From Malus domestica (taxonomy: Eukaryota > Streptophyta > Magnoliopsida > Rosales > Rosaceae): 64,000 nt of DNA. Shown here piece by piece: positions 36,186-48,368 of this stretch; the stretch's first letter is position 1, and each line of letters starts with the position of its first letter. Below the pieces are notes generated by a model, which worked only from the letters and a program-made list of their open reading frames with translations, searched no databases and was not told where the DNA came from. Location of the stretch: contig NC_091675.1 in the NCBI RefSeq assembly GCF_042453785.1, forward strand, positions 51,098,501 to 51,162,500, read 5' to 3'. Both the position numbers and the translations under genes were made by a program.

Positions 36186-37395
36186 AGTGCAGAAACTTTC
36201 ATGGTAGAGGGAGAGGCAGAGAGATGAAGAAGAAGAAGAAGAATGAGAGAGAAGGGATGAATTAAGTTTGTGGTGGCAGTTTCAATTTAAACATGTAGAA
36301 GGTGGAAGAGTCGGAGAGAGTGGACCAAAGACTCGTTTACACGCTTTTGAGAGAGTGTTTTTGAGGACCAAAGACCGAGTCCCTTTGAACACCTTAACTT
36401 TTGTATGCATGTATAGAGACAGTAGGGGAGAGAGAGGGGAGCGTGTGGGTCAAGGACTCGATTACATCCAACATAACAAAGGATGGACAATTATTTCTTA
36501 ATTTTCTTTCTTAAAAAGTCTTGCTAATCTTGTTCTAAACAGGGAAGTAAACTTAACCTTAGTTTAGTGGAAGAAGAAGGAAAGACTTTTTTTCTTATAT
36601 TTATTTATAAATATCAAGTACAAAATACGGAAAACAATTAAGAGAATACTAGGTATTTTTCTCATATTTTCTTTTTCTATTTGCGTGTTGAGAGTGAATT
36701 TCACATCAAAAAAAAAAGAAAAAACTTTGCATGTACTTATAAAAATTTGAGTTATCTCCTATGTTACCAACAATGGTTTTAAAAATGAGCCTTGTGATGC
36801 GCCTAGGCGGTCTTCGAGGCGGGGTGGTGAGGAAAAGGCCTTTGCCTTGTAGGAGTAGGTTTAAACTCACTTAGGGTGGTCGAGGTGCACCTAAGGCATC
36901 AACTGGGGCGTTTTCTTTTCAAGGTTAGGGTTTATCATAGTGGAGAAATTTTTTTATTTGATTGCTGATTATTCTTCTATAATTAATTTTGACTCTGTAT
37001 GTTTGATTTCGACTCTATATATTTGATGTCGGTTTTATTGTTATATGTATTAATAATTTTAGCTCCTATGAGGTTTCGCCTCATGCCTCAAGGTTTTCGC
37101 CTAGACAGGGCTATCCATGAAACGCCTTACTCGCCTTCTCCTTTAAAAACATTGGTTACCAATTCATTTTATATTGAAAACTCAACTTCCATAATTGCCC
37201 AGCTAGATAAAATGACAAACACACATGATGCAAGGAACAACACTATTAAACTTTATGGTACATTTAGTAATCATATAAATGATATTAAATTCTTTACTTA
37301 CTCACATTACAAGCATTATGGAAGAAAAAATTCACTCTTGCATCAAACTTTTGAACCTTGAAATTAGGTAGCTACTGCTAAAACAGCAACTCATC
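36186..37395. other. 5' flank of the CCR3-like gene and first copy of the duplicated spacer
   Basis: GA-rich leader (36215-36260) and promoter side of the kinase gene. From about 36366 to 37668 the sequence is duplicated further right (37696-38545 plus 43858-44467). Contains the intact hAT-type MITE 36771-37154. No independent gene. Confidence 0.75.
36771..37154. mobile_element. 384-bp hAT-type MITE, uninterrupted copy (8-bp TSD GTTACCAA)
   Basis: Ends CAATGGTTTTAAA / TTTAAAAACATTG (13 bp with one mismatch). GTTACCAA lies at 36763-36770 and 37155-37162. The interior has GCGCCTAGGCGG-type sequence common in plant dispersed repeats. Its duplicate at 38265-43962 is split by the LTR element. Confidence 0.85.
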
Positions 37396-37668
37396 GGTAC
37401 TGGGTGAGAAATCCTTGACTTTTTGTCGTTACCGGTATTGTTCCCGGACCGGAAACTTCAAGGATCAACATCCGCAAGCATCTTTATAACCTCCCGCATT
37501 GTCGGGCGCAACGATGGTAGCTTCGTAGTACAAAGAACAGCAACCTTCAAGACCTTGATCATGTCATCCTGGACACTTTCATCTGCCACTTTTTCATCGA
37601 GAATCTTAACAACCGCTTCACGGTCACTCAGATGCGTTGAAACCCAGTAAACAATATTTTTCCTTCCC
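37396..37668 (-). pseudogene. duplicated 3' fragment of the CEPR2-like receptor kinase
   Basis: This matches the last ~260 bp of the CEPR2-like coding region (44204-44467). The reading frame VSTHLSDREAVVKIL...MREVIKMLAD is retained, but a TGC-to-TGA change truncates it right after ADVDP. Homology ends abruptly at 37665-37668 in a run of C, where 30 bp of CCR3-like coding sequence begins. No promoter or kinase core, so it is a nonfunctional by-product of the tandem duplication. Confidence 0.9.
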
Positions 37669-37695
37669 CCCAACAAACAACTGTTCCGTTGGGCC
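37666..37695. other. 30-bp filler at duplication junction, from CCR3-like exon
   Basis: 29 of 30 bases match 35351-35380 in the same orientation. It joins the CEPR2-like 3' fragment on its left to a copy of the CCR3-like 5' flank (from AAAGACTCG) on its right. Confidence 0.85.
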
Positions 37696-38078
37696 AAAGA
37701 CTCGATTAAGTCCCTTTGAACACCTTAACTTTTGTATGCATGTATAGAGACAGAAGGGGAGAGAGAGAGAGAGGGGAGCGTGTGGGTCAAAGACTCGATT
37801 AAGTCCAACATAATAACAAAGGATGTACAATTATTTCTTAATTTTCTTTCATAAAAAGTCTTGCTAATCTTGTTCTAAACAGGAAAGTAAACTTAACCTT
37901 AGTTTAGTAGAAGGAAAGACTTTTTTTCTTATATTTATTTATAAATATCAAGTACAAAATACGGAAAACTATTAAGAGAATACTAGTTATTTTTCTCATA
38001 TTTTCTTTTTTTTTATTTGCGTGTTGAGAGTATGAATTTCACATAAAAAAAAAAACTTTGCACGTACTTAAAAAAAAA

Positions 38079-38232
38079 GGGAGTTTTAACGAAAAGCACA
38101 CAATACTGTTCACTTTAACGAAAAACCACATTTTTACACTAAAAAGTCAAACTAGGTACTATTCACTTTACCCTTTATTTTGTCCTTATCATTAAAGCTC
38201 AAAGTTTTCAAACCCTGTTCATTAATTTTCCT
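38079..38232. mobile_element. Mutator-type MITE, third copy of the 24479/25578 family
   Basis: Begins GGGAGTTTTAACGAAAAGC and ends AATTTTCCT in A-rich flanks, with internal GTACTATTCACTTTACCC. The matching place in the other duplicate (near 36741) lacks it, so it inserted after the duplication. Confidence 0.75.
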
Positions 38233-38545
38233 TAAAAAAATTGAGTTACCTCCTATGTTACCAACAATGGTTTTAAAAACGAGCCTTGCGATGCGCCTAG
38301 GCGGTCTTTGAGGCGAGGCGGTGAGGAAAATGCCTTTGCCCAGCAGGAGTATGTTTAAACTCGCTTAGGGTAGTCGAGGTGCACCAAAGGCATCAACTGG
38401 GGCGTTTTCTTTTCAAGGTTAGGGTTTATCATAGTGGAGAATTTTTTTTATTTGATTGTTGATTATTCTTCTATAATTAATTTTGACTCCGTATGTTTGA
38501 TTTCGACTCTATATATTTGATGTCGGTTTTATTGTTATATATATT

Positions 38546-38911
38546 TGTTGATGCACAAAACCGGAGGGGTCTTGGAACAACGTAAATCCGACCGTAAATC
38601 TGCAAGAAAGTAAATAACACAGATGTATCGTGGTGCACTCCAATGTTTGGGCTACGTCCACACTGATATTGTATTTCTCTGTTTGTGAGAGGATTGTGAG
38701 GGAGAGAGAGCTTGAATATGAGAGTGAGGCTTTGGGGATCTCAGGCCTAAGAATTGGCCTCCCCCAATGAGGAGAGTGATGAGTCATTTTATAGAATAAG
38801 GGCTCCTTACTTATTACATATTTGCCCATTCATTTATTACATAATTACATTTGAGTCATCCGAGTATTTATACGAGGTCTAAATACAGAGGCCCTAAGTA
38901 TGGTATAAACA
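38546..38911 (-). repeat. 3' LTR of the gene-carrying element
   Basis: TGTTGATGC...TATAAACA on the plus strand. Adjacent TSD ATATT on the left, purine-rich GGAGGACTAC (minus strand) on the right. Confidence 0.9.
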
Positions 38912-39125
38912 GTAGTCCTCCAAGTCTTCAGTCAAGAGACTTTTTTGGTTGGAGACTTGAAATTTAGTTCATGTGTGGGCCGAAGTAACTAGATGTCGTC
39001 TAGAACTGATACTCGATATGAGGCAGTGCCCAATCTGAAATGATGCTCAACCAGAAGTAGCACATGTTGCGAGGCTGCTCTGCTTGTGGCTTATGTTGCC
39101 TTGGTTGGTTTGGCTTGTGGCGTTG

Positions 39126-39660
39126 AAGGTGAGAGAGTCCCTTTTATAGAATAAGGGCTCGATCCTCAATACATAAGTGATGGGCTAAGAGTTGATGCTC
39201 GCGGCGAGGCAGTTGCTCAGTAGGCGGCGATGCTATCTAATGATGATGATGGAGTGCCTTTTATAAAATAAGGGCTCGCTCCTCAGTACATGAATAATGG
39301 GTTATGAGTGATGCTCGCGGCGAGACGGTTGCTCAGTTGGCAGCGATGCTCTCTAATGAAGGTGAGGGAGTCCCTTTTATAAAATAAGGGCTCACTCATC
39401 AGTACATGAATAATGGGTTATGAGTGATGCTCGCGGCGAGACGGTTGCTTAACTGGCGGTGATGCTTTCTAATGAAGGTGAGGGAGTCCCTTTTATAAAA
39501 TAAGGACTCGCTCTTCAGTACATGAATAATGGGTTAGGAGTGATGCTTGCGGCGACGCGGCTGCTCAGCTGGCGGCGATGCTCTCTAATGAAGGTGAGAG
39601 AGTCCATTTTATAAAATAAGGGCTCGCTCCTCAGTATATAAATAATGGGCTAAGTCCCCC
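39126..39660. repeat. 116-bp tandem repeat, about 4.6 units
   Basis: Units begin near 39126, 39242, 39358, 39474 and 39590. Each contains GAGTCCCTTTTATAAAATAAGGG and GATGCTCGCGGCGAG. They lie between the 3' LTR and the host-gene fragments of the LTR element. The segment ATAGAATAAGGGCTC also occurs in the LTRs, so the array may derive from LTR sequence. Confidence 0.85.
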
Positions 39661-39825
39661 AAGTATTTTTCATGAGGCCCAGTTGAGGCCCAATATATGG
39701 TACATAATGTAGTCCCCCAAGTCTTCAGTCAATAGAGTCTGTTGGCTGGAGACTTCAAATAGAATCCATGTATGGGCCAAAGTGGCGGTTGTTCGGATGC
39801 GGTATTTGTATACCCTGCACTGAAG

Positions 39826-40110
39826 CTTTGCAGGTGAAACTTTGCAAGTGAAGCTTTTGAAGCTGGAGCTTTGTAAATGAAGCTTTTGAAGCAGGAGCTC
39901 TCGAAGCTGGAGCTCTGTAAATGAAGCTTTCGAAGCTGATTGACATAAGTGATGCTCATGGATGTTGACATGAGTGATGCTCATGAATGTTGACATGAGT
40001 GATGCTCATGAATGTTGACATGAATGATGGTCATGAATGTTTATGTATGATTGACATAAGTGATGCTCATGAATGTTTATGTATGATTGACATGAGTGAT
40101 GGTCATGTAT
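39826..40110. repeat. two short minisatellites inside the LTR element
   Basis: 39826-39938 holds repeated AAGCTTT(T/C)GAAGCTGGAGCT units. 39939-40110 holds ~25-bp units TTGACATGAGTGATGCTCATG, some with an inserted TTTATGTATGA. Confidence 0.85.
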
Positions 40111-40120
40111 AATTTTGGAG

Positions 40121-40387
40121 TACTGGACGTACTTTTGATCATCTGGTTGGTGATAATAGCGGCAGGCTGCCGAATAATTTTTTAGAGTATTGGGCGTACT
40201 TTTGATCACCTGGTTGGTGGTAATAGCGGCAGGCTGCCGAATAATTTTGGAGTACTGGGCGTACTTTTGATCACCTGGTTGGTGGTAATAGTGGCAGGCT
40301 GCCGAATAATTTTTTGTAGTACTGGACATACTTTTGATCACTTGGTTGGTGATAATAGCGGCAGGCTGTCGAATAATTTTTTGTAGT
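40121..40387. repeat. ~66-bp tandem repeat, four units, interrupted by a solo LTR
   Basis: Units start near 40121, 40188, 40252 and 40320 (TACTGG.CGTACTTTTGATCA...GGCAGGCTGCCGAATAATTTT). A further partial unit resumes right after the solo LTR at 41513-41553. Confidence 0.88.
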
Positions 40388-41507
40388 TGTTGACCCTAAA
40401 AACTACCAAGCCTACGTGATGCGCAAGCCGAGTAATCTATGAGCTAACTACGTCCTTCGGTTGAATGCGGGGCATGCTAACTCGTCGGCCAAGGAGTAAA
40501 ATATGCTGATGTTGTGATGAGTGCGCGGCCGACTTCTGCGTCTTGCAGTTACGACCGAGGAAGGAACACGTCTCGACCTCTTGGGTTCTCGAACCTGAAG
40601 ACAAGACTACTATTCTTACGAAGCTCACAAATCGTCGTCGTCGGATTCGGTCACATTGATGGTATTCGTCAGAGTAAACTCACGCTGAATCGACACCAAA
40701 GTGTAAGGACACAAATACTCAAGCGGATATATGTCTTAACAATAAACGTGGTTTGGCCGTCGGAATGCCGAACTCTAAATCCCACTTGAGAGTATCCAAT
40801 CATAAACTAACTCGACGTGCAATGTGCCGAGCCTAATAAACTGTAACACCTCACTTTGCCAAGAAGGCTAATGAGATGACCTCAACCAATAAGGATTCGG
40901 GAATCCTTTTCAACCGAGACTTGGATAGATAACCAGTCACCCTTGACGCAGTGCTATCTATGCCGACTGAAGATGCTGCGAGACCGGCTGGTTCTACGGT
41001 GACAGTGCTATCTATGCCAACTAAAGATATCACCGGTTGCCTTCACAGTGCTGTTTATCCAAACTAAAGGTGTGTCGGCGAAAAAAGAAAAGGAAAAAGT
41101 CTTAAGGCTGTTGAGAGAATTTGCACAGGGCAGTTGTGTGTTGAATTGAAGGGGGTTTGAATGATGCACAGCCTCCTCTATTTATAGCATTAGGTCTTCT
41201 CTAGATCGAGTTATATCCCTACTCGGATTATGACTCCTTATTCTAACCAAACACTATCTTGACCAATCCTATTTTCACTATGACTATGAACCCGATCCTT
41301 TACCAAGCCGCATTCACTTCCGGGTTATAAATATCTATATCTTGCTGAGACTCCTTATTGTGCCAAGATTCAATTACTCGTCTTGCAGCACGACTCGGCC
41401 GACCTAGGTTAGGAAGCCCATGAACTAAACGATCCATGATAACTTTTCGTAAGACCTTCCGGGCCGAGAATAGAACTCGGCCCAAACCATTATTTTGGTC
41501 CCAAACA
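40388..41507. mobile_element. 1120-bp solo LTR nested in the gene-carrying element (TSD GTAGT)
   Basis: TGTTGACCC...GGTCCCAAACA, with GTAGT at 40383-40387 and 41508-41512. Removing it and one GTAGT restores a normal tandem-repeat unit (TTTTTTGTAGTACTGG), which confirms the boundaries. The interior has promoter-like TCTATTTATAGC near 41178-41189. No internal domain remains, so it is a recombination product of a full element. Confidence 0.92.
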
Positions 41508-41723
41508 GTAGTACTGGATGTACTATTGATCACCTGGTTGGTGATAATAGAGGGTCTGGTTCTTTTGGGCATATGGGCCTTCGCCCTCCACATAACATTC
41601 CAGCCCATTATTTTGGGCTTGCCTTTTTTTTTTATTATTATTTTTTTATTACCCTTTGATGGGGTTTATATGTTTCCGAAAAAAATAAATCACATCATTC
41701 AAAAACAAGAAAAGTAAATCACA

Positions 41724-42227
41724 TCATTCTGGTGGGGTATTTATTCCTTGCTTTTTCTTTTTGCTTTTACTTTTCTCTTTTTGCTTTTGGTTTCTGCTTT
41801 CTACTTTTGTTTTTGTTTCTTCTTTTCTGCTGCATGGTCCACGAATCCACCCCAAAGGCTCCATAATATTCTCCCACACTGGAAAGTGGAGACGTTTGGT
41901 GCCGACAAAATGATGGGGCATCGTCTGGTGCGCTTGCCTTGATTGAGGTGAAAAGTGAAGGGGCACGTCGCTCGGACACGTGCCATAAGGAACTCCCAGA
42001 ATACGCAGGGGAATGAGCATTTCTTGATCCCGCTGGGTTATCCCGTGACTAACCTTGAGTTTCAGGTCAAAGATCAAGTTGTCTTCGGCGCTGAGATCAT
42101 TGAAAACGCCAAAATCCCAGCAGAGAAAAATCACCACCGGAGAGCCCATCTTTGGGTGGTTCCCTGTTATCGGACCTTCCGTGAAGCCCCCACGAAACCT
42201 GACTCGACGATCTAAGTCGGATTGCAA
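41724..42227 (-). other. unassigned 167-codon open frame in the LTR element
   Basis: An open frame in the element's sense orientation, reading through a Lys/Gln-rich tail (KQKEKSKSKKKKQ). The frame opens without a clear ATG and I recognise no domain. It lies next to the syntaxin fragment, so it could be a fourth captured host segment or nonfunctional sequence. Confidence 0.3.
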
Positions 42228-42236
42228 TTCATGCTG

Positions 42237-42349
42237 TTAGAGATCTGCTGCTCCTTGCGCCTGCACCAACATTGCCATGTCCAGGAACACCTGGTGTAGC
42301 TCTTGCAGGTTCCTCTCCATGTCCTTTACGGCGTCGTGTCGCTCTTTTC
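42237..42349 (-). pseudogene. captured Qa-SNARE (plant syntaxin) fragment
   Basis: The frame reads [12 protein letters not shown], then [14 protein letters not shown] and VQAQG before diverging to AADL and a stop at 42237-42239. This is the SNARE helix of SYP1-type plant syntaxins, including the central glutamine of the zero layer (HQVF). Only about 33 residues remain; the N-terminal Habc domain and membrane anchor are absent. It lies in the sense orientation of the LTR element, 3' of the TM9SF fragment. Confidence 0.85.
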
Positions 42350-42499
42350 TCTCTCTTTCTCTCAATATCTTTGTCCACCAAGACTCTGTAGGAAACTAAA
42401 ACTTCGCAGATCTCTCAACGCACCGTGAGTGAGTGAGTGGGTGAGTCGAGAGGAGCGAGTGAGGGCTGAATTGAGCAGTGGGTCGGGGACGAGTTGGCA

Positions 42500-42644
42500 T
42501 CTAGAACTGGGGTTGTGAAACGGGCCGACCTTGTTGGCATACAGAGGGACTAAATCTCCTTCTTTGTAGCGATGATTTGACCCGTCGGACCTGACTAGAT
42601 CTGTACCGGACAAAATTAGCAAAGCAATGATGCAGTGTACTGAG
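42500..42644 (-). pseudogene. captured TM9SF/TMN endomembrane protein fragment
   Basis: The frame reads CIIALLILSGTDLVRS (end of a signal peptide), then HRYKEGDLVPLYANK and VGPFHNPS, the invariant start of the mature lumenal domain in transmembrane-9 superfamily proteins. Homology stops after HNPS, where family members continue with a Tyr-rich segment. About 48 codons are present, in the element's sense orientation. With so little of the family's ~600 residues left it cannot function as a TM9SF protein. Confidence 0.85.
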
Positions 42645-42689
42645 GAATCATTACGAGATCTTCGCCGGAGCTAGTAGAGTCTTCCTCTG

Positions 42690-43349
42690 TCATTCTCTCA
42701 TTCCAAGAGCTTTCTCAACTCCAAAACTCCCCTTCCTATCCTCTAAACTCTCCAAAACATGTCCGATCCTGGAATCTGGTGTAACCAAACCCCTATGAAT
42801 TTCAATGTCTCCGACCGATCCCGCCTCAACTCTGCTCTCCGTTCCTCCTCCCATTCCCAAATCCATCCAAAACACCAACCCAACAAAAAATAAGTAAAAC
42901 CCAACAAAACCGATCGCTTGCCACATATAAACCTCGGCGCTCAGATACACATAGAACAAGAACAGCGTCGCCGTCAGATAAAACATCACGTCCCTTACAA
43001 ACGGTGCCGGCTTAAGCGGAAAGGGCGCGGCGTAAATCGCTATAAACCCTACCATGAATGCCGACACGAAAATACCGGTGGACAAAATCGTGCCGAACCC
43101 GGTTCAGTACTGCCCCGTCCGAACCGCTGCGACCGAGGTAAAGACGCCAGGGGTGCCGTTTTCGAGCGCGTGAAGGGTGACGGCGGCCATGCTGGTGGTC
43201 AAATCGAGGGCAAAAACGAGTTTGGTGGTGACAAGAGAGAAGTGATCCTGGGCTGTTTTGATGAGGATGTAGATGAGGAGGAGGAGAAGGATGAGAGAGA
43301 GAGAGAATTCAGGTTTTGAAAGAGGAGGAGAGAGAGATGGCCATGCCAT
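42690..43349 (-). pseudogene. captured cation/calcium exchanger (CCX) fragment with premature stop
   Basis: Frame 43349-43104 reads FSLVTTKLVFALDL, SMAAVTLHALENGTPG and SVAAVRTGQY, then TGA, then continues without shift through TGFGTILSTGIFVSAF, VGFIAIYAAPF, FLFYVYLSAEVYMW and VGFYLFFVGLVFWMDLG to about 42690. This is the first exchanger repeat of plant CCX proteins. The stop is where family members have Arg, consistent with CGA-to-TGA. The family's ion-binding GNG.PD motif reads ENGTPG here, so key acidic and glycine residues are lost. The second repeat is absent. Confidence 0.88.
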
Positions 43350-43465
43350 TTAGCAAGCAAAAAGCTCCAATCTTCCCGACTTTGGTTCTTGGGTTTCTGT
43401 GATTTTGTAGATTCACGGCGGAGGTAAAAAAAATGAAAGAGAACCCACATAACTTTTCATATCGA

Positions 43466-43485
43466 TTCCCACAGATGGCGCCAAA
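43466..43485 (-). other. primer-binding-site-like motif of the LTR element
   Basis: Directly next to the 5' LTR on the minus strand: TTTGGCGCCATCTGTGGGAA. The TGGCGCC start resembles primer-binding sites of Tat/Athila-type gypsy elements. Confidence 0.6.
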
Positions 43486-43852
43486 TGTTGATGCACAAAA
43501 TCGGAGGGGTCTTGGAACAACGTAAATCTGACCGTGAATCTGCAAGAAAGTAAATAACACAAATGTATCGTGGTTCACCCCAATGTTTGGGCTACGTCCA
43601 CACTGATATTGTATTTCTCTGTTCGTGAGAGGATTGTGAGGGAGAGAGAGCTTGAATATGAGAGTGAGGCTTTGGGGATCTCAGGCCTAAGAATTGGCCA
43701 CCCCCAATGAGGAGAGTGAGGAGTCCTTTTATAGAATAAGGGCTCCTCACTTATTACATATTTGCCCCCTTCATTTATTACATAATTACATTTGAGTCCT
43801 CCGAGTATTTATACGAGGTCTAAATACAGAGGCTCTAAGTATGGTATAAACA
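43486..43852 (-). repeat. 5' LTR of the gene-carrying element
   Basis: 367 bp, near-identical to 38546-38911, flanked on the right by TSD ATATT (43853-43857). Confidence 0.9.
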
Positions 43853-44181
43853 ATATTAATAATTTTAGCTCTTATGAGGCTTTGCCTCATCCCTCAAGGT
43901 TTTTGCCTAGACGGGGCTATCCATGAAACGCCTTAGTTTCGCCTTCGCCTTTAAAAACATTGGTTACCAATTTATTTTATATTGAAACCTCAACTTCCAT
44001 AATTGCCCAGCTAGATAAAATGACAAACACACATGTTGCAAGGAACAACACTTTTAAACTTTATGGTACATTTAGTAATCATATAAATGATATTAAATTC
44101 TTTACTTACATTACAAGCATTATGGAAGAAAAAATTCACTCTTGCATCAAACTTTTGAACCTTGAAATTAGGTATCTACTG

Positions 44182-47100
44182 CTAAAACAGCAACTCATCG
44201 GTACCGGGTGAGACATCCTTGACTTTTTTGTCGTTACCGGTATTGTTCCCGGACCGGAAACTGCAAGGATCAGCATCCGCAAGCATCTTTATAACCTCCC
44301 GCATTGTCGGGCGCAACGATGGTAGCTTCGTAGTACAAAGAACAGCAACCTTCAAGACCTTGATCATGTCATCCTGGACACTTACATCTGCCACTTTTTC
44401 ATCGAGAATCTTAACAACCGCTTCACGGTCACTCAGATGCGTTGAAACCCAGTAAACAATATCTTTTCCTTCCCCGTAATCCTCTTCAATTGGTCTCCTA
44501 CCAGTTACTAGCTCTAGCAGCACAACACCGAAGCTATACACATCGCACTTTTCGTTCACTTTAGCAGTATATGCCAGCTCTGCAGGAAATCAGTTCAAAA
44601 TGTTTGAATACATGCATGTTGTGAAGATTTTGGATACAATCTGAATTGAATGAGACGGTCCAATATAAAAAATGAAAGCAACATCAAATCTCGTGAGCAG
44701 ATTAAAATTCTAGAGTTGTAGAAAACGTCGCAGAGAAATTGATACAAGCATAGTTGAAGTAAGAAACCAAGGCTAACGTATGTGACCAACAACGATGGAA
44801 GGATAAAAGTATGTGCTTTTGTAGATTTGAAACTCACCGGGAGCAATATAGCCATGTGTGCCGGCGAATGAGCTGTAATCAGAACCCTTCTGAGAATTTT
44901 CTGCAATCTTTGCAACCCCAAAATCAGCAACTTTTGCCTCATAATCGTCGTCGAGCAGAATGTTGGTGGATTTAATATCCCTGTGAATTATAGCTGGTGA
45001 ACAATCATGGTGCAGATAAGCAATCCCCCGAGCTGCTCCCAAAGCAATCTTATACCTCTGGCACCAATCCAATTCGGGCTTCCCGCATTTAATCTCTCTG
45101 TGAAGCGCTTCAAACAAATTACCATTTGCCATGTACTCAAACACGAGAACTCTAGATCCGCCCTTCACTAAACAAGCGTATAGCTTCAGTATATTTTTAT
45201 GCCTTATCTTCCCCAAAATGTCCATCTCTGCCATCAAAAGCTTCATGCCATCTCCTTTCCAAAGTTGTTTGACAGCTACCGTGCCACGACCTTTCTTCAA
45301 ATCTATGCGGTAAACTTTCCCTGTACTACCACTTCCAATCAAATTTTCTTCTTCCAAATCGCATATCTCATCTGCATCTATTTCCAACTGGTGGAAAGAT
45401 GCAAGTTTCCATTTCGGATCTTTCTCCTTCCCTGCTTCCAAATTATTTTCTCTGTCAACCGCCTTCCCAAGCTTGAAATTCTTATAACTGACAAGCAGTA
45501 ATCCAGCAAAAACAGCAACCAACGCTGATGCTATAATAATGAACAAAACCAGTTTACTTTCAAGCACCCTTTTTCTATTCGGCTTTTCAGTACACGTGTT
45601 CATCCCAGAATTTGTGCGAGTTCTGGAATATTGATCGATGCAGAGTCCCTTGTTTCCGGCGAAGGCTTTGTCTCCTCCCATGGTCAGAAGATCAGATGGT
45701 ACTCTTCCAGATAACTGATTCCCAGACAAATCTATAGAACTTAGCTTCAGTTTCGCCAAAGCTTCAGGAATCAAACCCATGAGGTGGTTTTTCGAGAGAT
45801 TTAGAGAGTTCAAAGAGCTCATTAGTGATAATGTACGAGGGATATTACCAGTTAAAGAATTCGAAGCAAGATTCACGTCCACCAACTTAACACAGTTTCC
45901 CAATTCTGATGGTATTGATCCTGTCAAAGAATTGAATTCGAGATGCAAAGATGACAGCAGCTTTAGAGCACCCATTTCAGAAGGAATTTCACCAGAAAAG
46001 TTATTACTGCTCAGATAGAGCTTCTCCAAGTTCAATAGGTCCCCAAGTTGCGGTGAAAGATAACCTGAGAAACCATTGTTCTGCAATATCAACTGATTCA
46101 AGCTGGTAGAAAACCCAATGCTGGGGGATATCTCTCCGCTGAAGTTGTTATCACTAAAATCAATCATTGTCGCGTAGGGAAGTGACCAAAACTCGGCTGG
46201 AATCTTCCCAGACAAACGGTTCTGATTGACTCTCAGCCGCTGTAGAGATTTACAACGAACATAAGAATCTGGAAACTCCCCAGAAAAATTGTTGTCCAAA
46301 GCAAGCAAGAAATTTAACCTGCCGTTTTCACAAAGAAACCTTGGGAAACCACCTGAAAACTGATTCTCGGATATGTCGATGCTTTCCAAAGGTGAGAATC
46401 TACCAAAATTGGTCGGAAATTCCCCAGAAAATCTGTTTCCGTAGATTGAGACTGATCCAAGGTGTTTCATATCGCCGAACCCAGCAGGGAATTCCCCGGA
46501 GAAATTGTTCCCAAATAACTGAAAAACCTTCAAGTTCTTGAGATTTCCCATCTCCGAAGGCAACTTCCCATAAAACTTGTTTGATGAGATATCAAATTCC
46601 CTTAAGAGGGTGAGACTAGCAAGCCCTCGTGGGATTTCTCCAGTCAAATTGTTTTGAAAAAGTTCAATCTTATTGAGGTTTTGTAGATGGGAAATGGACT
46701 CAGAGATCTTCCCAGAGAGCTTGTTTCTCGACATATCCAACGTCTCCAATGCCGTCATTTCGTAAACAGATTCCGGAATCTCTCCTCTCAACTGGGTAAA
46801 CCCCAGATGGAGCCAAGTTACGTGGGTCAAGTTTTCAAGCCCCTCAGGAATTTCACCTTCATCAAACTCATTTTCCCCAAGCACGAGAGAAACCAACCCA
46901 GTCAGATTCCCCACCCAGGATGGGAATGCGGCGGAGAAGAAGTTTGTCGAAAGATCAAGAATCTCCAATTTTCCGAGGGCAGAAAGATCGGGGATTGCTC
47001 CCACCATTTTGTTGCCGGTGAGATTTAAAGTTTTAAGATTTGCGCAACGAGTGACTTGGGCAGGAAGCTTTCCGGTAATGTTGTTGGAAGGCAGTGAAAG

Positions 47101-47400
47101 CGTCACTAGGCTGTCAAGACCACCAATGGCGGGCGAAATCTCCCCCGAAAGGGACTTGTTATCAAGAGAAATTCCAATCACTTTTCCGCTAATCCCATCA
47201 CAAGCAACTCCGAAGAAGTTGCAGGGCGACCGGTCAGCGGTCTCTTTCCAGGAATCGAGAACATTCAGAGGGTCCTTGAGCTGCCTCTTCAACTCAAGGA
47301 CGGCTTCAGTTTCCGTTTGACTTCCGACCGTTAGAGGCAAACATGGCGGGAAAAGCAAACCGAAGAGAAATACAGTTGATAGCAGCAAGTACAGTGCCAT
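44182..47400 (-). CDS. LRR receptor-like kinase, CEPR2/HAESA-like subfamily XI, 986 aa
   Basis: Two exons on the minus strand: 47400-44838 and 44579-44182, joined phase 1 (APG|ELAYT becomes APE-LAYT, the kinase APE motif). The intron is 258 bp, GT-AG. The first ATG giving a signal peptide (MALYLLLSTVFLFG) is at 47400. An LRR N-terminal cap (DPLNVLDSWKETADRSPCNFFGV) is followed by about twenty plant-type LRRs with LSGEIP/LTGNIP spacing, a transmembrane helix (about 617-640), then the kinase: IGSGSTGKVYR (about 685), VAVKQLW, HRDIKSTNILLD (about 805), DFGVAK. Motifs are intact. This closely resembles CEPR2 (C-terminally encoded peptide receptor), but the ligand assignment is by family resemblance. 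Its 3' end has been tandemly duplicated (37396-37668). Confidence 0.93.
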
Positions 47401-48368
47401 TGGCAATACAGTAATAGGTACTACTAGTAGGGGTAAAATGGTCAATTAAGGACAACGGAGCTTTAAATTTTGCGACCACCACCACCACCACCACTACCCC
47501 TACCCCACGCCGATGCTCTTATTTGAACTTGAACAAGTTCTGAGTAAGCGGAAGGAAACAGCTGTGCAGAAAAAGACCACAAGTCAATGTCTCTGACTGC
47601 ATTATCTTGATAATTTATAATTTAATAATTATTATTATTATTATTAAAAAATACACGGTTAAATTAAAATTATTAATTTATAATTTATAATAATCTTTAC
47701 TAATTGATAAAACATTCATTGTTAATCAAAACGCTATAAAATTATCAATTTAACACTTTAATTAAAAGAGAACATGAATCAGAAATATGGGGCAGAAATG
47801 TAATTTTACACAACTAAATTTTGCTGTTTTTTTTTTCAAAGCCTCACCTACATATAATTCTAACATATTTTTGATTAAAAAAAAAAAAATTCCTGCTCCT
47901 ACATTCTCTATCACTCTCTTCCTCTCTCCTATTTAAAAAACAAAAATAAAAAATTTTCTTATGCACTTTGCGTGTGCCCATATGCTAGTATTTATTAAGC
48001 AGTGTTAGTAATCAATACCAACTAAGGGGACGTTAAAACGTCAATTTTGTCTGTAGCTGTGGATTCTCTTGCTTGCATATGAGAGTTATGGTTACTGTAA
48101 ATTAAGACAACTTCATAATTGATTACCCTTGCAAGTCACTCATTAGTCCATCATTTCTTTTGCATATTTTCTTTTTTATTTTTAAAAAGGGATAAGCTGG
48201 TGGTTTACATTAATCCATCATTTCGAGACCTAGAAAGGTTTACATAAATATTTCAGCTTCTTTCTGATTATCATTGCGTGTTTCACAAGTGCTAAAGATC
48301 GAATTCAAGACATGCCATATGAAATACAGGCATGAAATTCTCCCTAGTCACTGGTCACCCGTGATGGT

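Follow-up and report, generated by a model that had tools for sequence, protein, structure and literature searches.

The 64,000-nucleotide window of the Malus domestica genome analyzed here (RefSeq assembly GCF_042453785.1, contig NC_091675.1, positions 51,098,501 to 51,162,500, numbered from 1 below) contains, on the minus strand at 38546-43852, a complete long terminal repeat (LTR) retrotransposon of 5,307 bp without recognisable gag or pol. A preliminary description of this DNA had assigned to the element fragments of at least three host genes. We extend this count to four: as judged by sequence comparison, the element carries pieces of the plant genes for CCX5 (cation/calcium exchanger 5), a TM9SF protein of the EMP70 family, a SYP121-type syntaxin and, in reverse, the C2 domain of a phospholipase D (PLD). 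These four fragments, each from a different gene family, lie inside 1.4 kb, with the first three in the sense of the element and the PLD piece antisense to it. We assign a probability of roughly 0.55 to the reading that they were acquired by template switching of reverse transcriptase onto cellular RNAs and were then copied with the element.

Pieces of four plant genes

The CCX5 piece (42690-43349, minus strand) is recognized by the Pfam model Na_Ca_ex (2.6e-14) and by its similarity to NCLX in the PDB (3e-10), and it additionally reaches three antiporter models of NCBIfam, all under their cut-offs. A search of a 5.8-billion-protein collection, which also supplied the protein matches for the TM9SF and syntaxin pieces, returned 258 proteins at E<=0.001 among 7,999 candidates scored, with CCX5 at 2.6e-89. 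Among the matches listed (120 of the 258) the closest CCX5 is that of Prunus brigantina at 77%, and that of Malus domestica (P0049) stands at 72% over 74% of the query. The piece opens with MAWPSLS, for which a similar start occurs in one of the 120 listed proteins (MAWPS, Ziziphus P0005). The peptide IKTAQDHF is found at its residue 30, as against residues 103-117 in four relatives, and therefore 70-85 codons have apparently been lost. The gap is followed by 136 well-matched residues, over which the piece and Prunus are identical at 114, Prunus and Ziziphus at 125, and Prunus and Vitis at 115. Further, the piece contains one in-frame TGA and displays ENGTPG in place of the GNGAPD motif.

The TM9SF piece (42506-42640, minus strand) corresponds to residues 9-53 of the Malus protein P0122, i.e. 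the N-terminal part. The protein search gave 79 matches among 92 candidates, all 79 with PF02990; the best (3.1e-19) is a Malus protein joining TM9SF to leucine-rich repeats, and the second (4.4e-19) is P0122 itself, with 42 of 47 residues identical. In the PDB the fragment drew a single match, to an unrelated protein (E 0.37), and Pfam likewise offered one unrelated model (0.32) and not EMP70; in viral contigs, which are not a plant collection, two pattern stretches were met, neither of them confirmed. Proteins of the chimeric kind are predicted in both M. domestica (12 members) and M. baccata: P0121 and P0123 combine a TM9SF N-terminal part with leucine-rich repeats, and the TM9SF region in these models is the same region that supplied the cargo piece.

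The third piece (42252-42344, minus strand) is a SNARE-helix fragment of a SYP121-type syntaxin, for which 32 of 67 candidates matched at E<=10, the last at 8.4. The best E-value, 3.4e-21, belongs to a Malus model with two syntaxins in one; the single-copy M. baccata protein P0202 gave 5.9e-10, and 33 of 49 residues agree with Malus P0203. The PDB returned syntaxin-1A (2e-6), and Pfam no SNARE match (one unrelated, 0.026). Thus the three families proposed beforehand, the last of them as a Qa-SNARE, were all recovered in the protein search, and the closest matches of both the TM9SF and the syntaxin pieces are Malus proteins, which makes a host of the Maleae likely; the CCX5 piece, closest to Prunus, gives no such indication.

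The fourth piece, absent from the preliminary description, lies on the plus strand at 41961-42233 and is interrupted by two frameshifts and one stop. In a single frame it matched the C2 domain at E 3e-4, under the Pfam cut-off, and a longer query gave 0.0036; read across both frameshifts it reached 5.3e-5, above that cut-off. The best PDB sequence match of the frameshift-corrected reading is phospholipase D alpha 1 (6kz8, 4.9e-6); of the single frames, one found no match in the PDB and another found PLD alpha 1 at 0.046. NCBIfam offered one unrelated match only (E 0.18). The piece may be of the delta type.

All these pieces are broken, and the original proteins are not predicted as products; nor was an open chimeric frame recognized in the element. 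Further gene pieces may hide in the remaining stretches of the cargo zone at 41832-41960, 42345-42505 and 42641-42693. A pair of 17-nt inverted arms flanking the syntaxin piece (42232-42248 and 42406-42422) was considered as a scar of strand switching and rejected, the sequence beyond the arms not being inverted and one arm being partly ordinary syntaxin coding sequence by eye. A repeated AGATCT near the junctions, noticed by eye only, was likewise dropped.

The element, its repeats and its insertion site

The element is bounded by a 5' LTR of 367 bp (43486-43852) and a 3' LTR of 366 bp (38546-38911), both on the minus strand and of the form TG...CA. They agree at 352 of 366 aligned bases, with a single gap column and a Kimura two-parameter (K2P) distance of 0.039. 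If substitutions arise at 1.3e-8 to 3.9e-9 per site per year, this divergence corresponds to an insertion age of about 1.5 to 5 million years. A promoter-like core, CCCTTATTCTATAAAA, starts at 43742 in the 5' LTR. The 5-bp target site duplication AATAT (ATATT on the plus strand) is present at 43853-43857 and 38541-38545. Two bases inside the 5' LTR lies the primer-binding-site-like TGGCGCCATCTGTGGGAA (43466-43483), which includes TGGCGCC and had a mean of 0.00 matches in 100 shuffles. Its partner may be tRNA-Lys-like; no tRNA gene was found within the window. A polypurine-tract-like GAAGACTTGGAGGACTAC (38912-38929) precedes the 3' LTR. Hence the intact LTR pair, the target duplication and the primer-site-like motif of the preliminary description all stand, as does its statement that polymerase and gag are missing: six-frame Pfam scans of 41500-43485 and 38912-41506, with stops read through, detected no gag, protease, reverse transcriptase or integrase. 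Only Na_Ca_ex rose above its cut-off in these scans, and below the cut-offs there were C2 (0.0036) and weak TgpA_N, DUF4131 and GAD-like matches. Probing the window with one 23-base sequence of the LTR revealed no further copy, and the LTR pattern had 0 matches in viral contigs and 0 in genome contigs, neither being a plant collection.

The DNA on either side of the element is duplicated. The flanks at 43853-44475 and 37709-38540 recur, joined, at 36378-37669 on the minus strand, where the element is absent; the joined flanks and this duplicate agree at 1,234 of 1,282 aligned bases (600/619 and 634/663 for the two sides), the alignment having 183 gap columns, and the duplicate has the target once, as AATAC. 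The whole 5.3 kb, cargo included, is therefore missing from the sister locus. The preliminary description had named, as an observation that would count against it, the occurrence of the pieces together at an ordinary genomic locus; the empty duplicate excludes this at the present site, a result that does not extend genome-wide. A receptor-like kinase gene reaches with its 3' end into the upstream flank (about 44586-44281 matches a kinase), and its first part is an open frame at 44773-47445 with leucine-rich repeats and a kinase by eye. The copy at 36378-37669 thus represents a tandem duplication, about 96% identical, of the 3' end of this gene and its downstream DNA.

Between the cargo and the 3' LTR, much of the interior is made up of repeats. 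A 67-bp tandem array (40113-40387, minus strand, with a further unit at 41508-41553) is split by a solo LTR of 1,120 bp (40388-41507, read on the minus strand, TG...CA, target duplication ACTAC), likewise absent from the preliminary description. Since ACTAC stands on both sides and the array is interrupted, this solo LTR arrived later. It is of another family, its comparison with the host LTR scoring 20, against a mean of 20.5 for shuffled sequences in a different comparison made by the same procedure. When it is removed with one copy of its target duplication the element measures 4,182 bp, and the interior shrinks from 4,574 to 3,449 bp. A second tandem array (39124-39649, minus strand) comprises 4.5 copies of a 116-bp unit, four of which contain an exact CCCTTATTYTATAAAA, the TATA-like core of the LTR. 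Adjoining it at 39653-39783, on the same strand, is a relic of a polypurine tract and LTR start. It is related to 38854-38986, the comparison scoring 101 where 200 shuffles reached no more than 30. The segment 39124-39783 is a possible internal promoter array, and the relic and the array fit recombination between related elements; complex multi-LTR forms of terminal-repeat retrotransposons in miniature (TRIMs) are known in pear (PMC4668562).

Decay of the pieces and origin of the cargo

The rates of decay of the pieces bear on when they were taken up. Counting a site as conserved when no more than one of up to eight references deviated, we found 18 replacements in the 136 codons of the CCX5 piece, one of them a stop, where the LTR divergence leads to an expectation of 6.0 (three times fewer, P 6e-5); this and the following comparisons are rough counts made without donor codons. 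Ten of the 18 are explained only by C:G>T:A changes, four by A:T>G:C, three by transversions and one is ambiguous; the first class would be expected at 14-29% (P 3e-5 to 0.017, depending on the weight given to transitions). Such an excess would be as in methylated, silenced elements. Because the replacements exceed the LTR-based expectation, the CCX5 piece was probably aboard before the present insertion, unless its donor was already decaying. By comparison, the TM9SF and syntaxin pieces together differ from Malus at 4 residues, two of which are also present in other Rosaceae, against 10.4 expected at the CCX rate (P 0.023), which weakly suggests that the pieces were captured at different times.

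Template switching, which we favor, would have proceeded as follows. The RNA of the element would be packaged with host RNAs in the particles of an autonomous partner, probably of the Gypsy type, and the reverse transcriptase would jump between templates, leaving short pieces in the stretch that separates the primer site from the tandem repeats. The reversed PLD piece might derive from an antisense RNA or from a jump made while the plus strand was being synthesized. There may have been more than one round of capture, as decay has gone further in the CCX5 piece than in those of TM9SF and syntaxin, and the loaded element would then have been copied and inserted at its present site. Such a course agrees with the LTR setting, with the order of three pieces in the sense of the element and, by analogy, with the precedents Bs1 and GmaRetroS15 discussed below. 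Its strongest form, in which the element is a serial collector that took up four host-gene pieces over two or more separate rounds, acquired one of them on the opposite strand and moved between rounds, strikes us as possible yet doubtful.

Several observations weigh against template switching. An antisense piece is unusual for retrotransposon transduction (PMC7264820), and the probes described above brought up no second copy of the element. The extra decay of the CCX5 piece would also follow from a donor that was already a pseudogene, and the nearest CCX5 among the matches listed is from Prunus and not Malus (77% vs 72%). Additionally, the TM9SF homology stops after AACCCCAG, and exactly there, between that NP and the next codon, 3 of the 79 TM9SF models break (P0149, P0189 and P0194, the last continuing as through a retained intron). 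An exon end thus probably lies where the piece ends, and genomic DNA or unspliced RNA would therefore be as good a template.

The main rival to template switching builds on the last point, and holds that the pieces entered at the DNA level, when a break in a resident LTR element was patched with filler copied in short stretches from several loci, in either orientation, the patched element being retrotransposed afterwards. Filler DNA at repaired breaks is a subject of the plant literature. Under this scenario the mixed orientation of the pieces, their shortness and near abutment and the stop of the TM9SF piece at the inferred exon end would all be natural. Nevertheless, this exon end is followed by TT where an intron would begin with GT, and the 87 bases beyond are unlike a typical plant intron, the stretch 42420-42508 having 45% C. 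Moreover, no intron was recognized in any piece, the introns of the donors not being known, and three of the four pieces follow the sense of the element, so that we consider filler repair followed by retrotransposition rather unlikely.

Helitrons and Pack-type transposons are known to bear cargo from multiple genes. A transposon of either kind could have assembled all four pieces and then entered the LTR element, whether by inserting itself or by being captured. In maize, Helitrons account for 1,194 captures of gene fragments, other DNA transposons (Pack-MULEs among them) for 462 and LTR elements for at least 189 (PMC2774510). Around the cargo, however, the inverted arms detected in 41560-43485 amount to only 18 pairs, of 10-22 nt and with mismatches in the longer ones, a count that lacks a chance control; hence no transposon with terminal inverted repeats is evident there, and we deem a pre-assembled cargo improbable. 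Finally, it is very improbable that the pieces came in later as unrelated insertions or are noise of the assembly: the one genuine later insertion inside the element, the solo LTR, is framed by a target duplication of its own, while none is seen around the gene pieces, which form one block near the primer site, are missing with the rest of the element from the duplicate (though each piece is not datable thereby) and include a CCX5 piece that looks older than the insertion.

Relation to known elements and implications

The closest parallels are elements with exon-only pieces of three genes in maize and soybean (PMC13317346; PMC4717578). In Bs1 of maize, also an LTR retrotransposon, three host genes are represented by pieces (PMC13317346). 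The apple element resembles it in that at least three host genes contributed to its interior, and differs in that it has four pieces, one antisense and all from other genes, and in that much of its interior is repeats. Bs1 reportedly keeps a remnant of its own gag. The soybean TRIM GmaRetroS15, given as the example of two TRIMs with more than two genes, is non-coding and contains pieces of three genes (one a 5' untranslated region) without introns, flanked by 5-bp target duplications (PMC4717578). The element described here is likewise non-coding, with multiple gene pieces and a 5-bp target duplication; unlike those TRIMs, of 1.2-1.4 kb, it measures 5.3 kb and has a tandem-repeat region. In view of these two precedents the claim of the preliminary description that this is an undescribed gene-shuffling element was too strong as regards the kind.

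Among other classes, the element shares with large retrotransposon derivatives (LARDs) a long interior without gag-pol between LTRs. The interiors of the three LARD families of pear are described as conserved, non-coding and usually over 4 kb (PMC4668562); that of the apple element, with its gene pieces, has 4,574 bp now and had 3.4 kb before the nested insertion. Tandem repeats near the 3' LTR are found in the Gypsy Tat/Retand elements, some of them non-autonomous (PMC11963269), and are likewise present in our element, which has no recognisable pol. Neither gag nor pol emerged from the six-frame Pfam scans, so that it does not qualify as an autonomous element of the Gypsy or Copia type. Its length of 5,307 bp rules out a TRIM, and its TG...CA termini rule out the Rosaceae 'TGTT' and 'AACA' families, which end in TG...TT and AA...CA.

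Plant LTR elements that have captured multiple genes are on record, though rare, and four pieces with one reversed extend this range. In maize, 425 intact LTR elements with gene pieces include none with more than one standard nuclear gene (PMC2774510), and our literature search, over sources available in part, found no report of the present element or of an LTR element with these four genes. If it is indeed a serial collector, this would be the most gene-laden plant LTR element in the literature examined, as far as those sources extend, and a record of repeated template switching. Its four pieces, with their two orientations and unequal decay, offer a test of stepwise gathering from RNA against repair of broken DNA, and of the speed at which exons, once captured, decay in silenced DNA.

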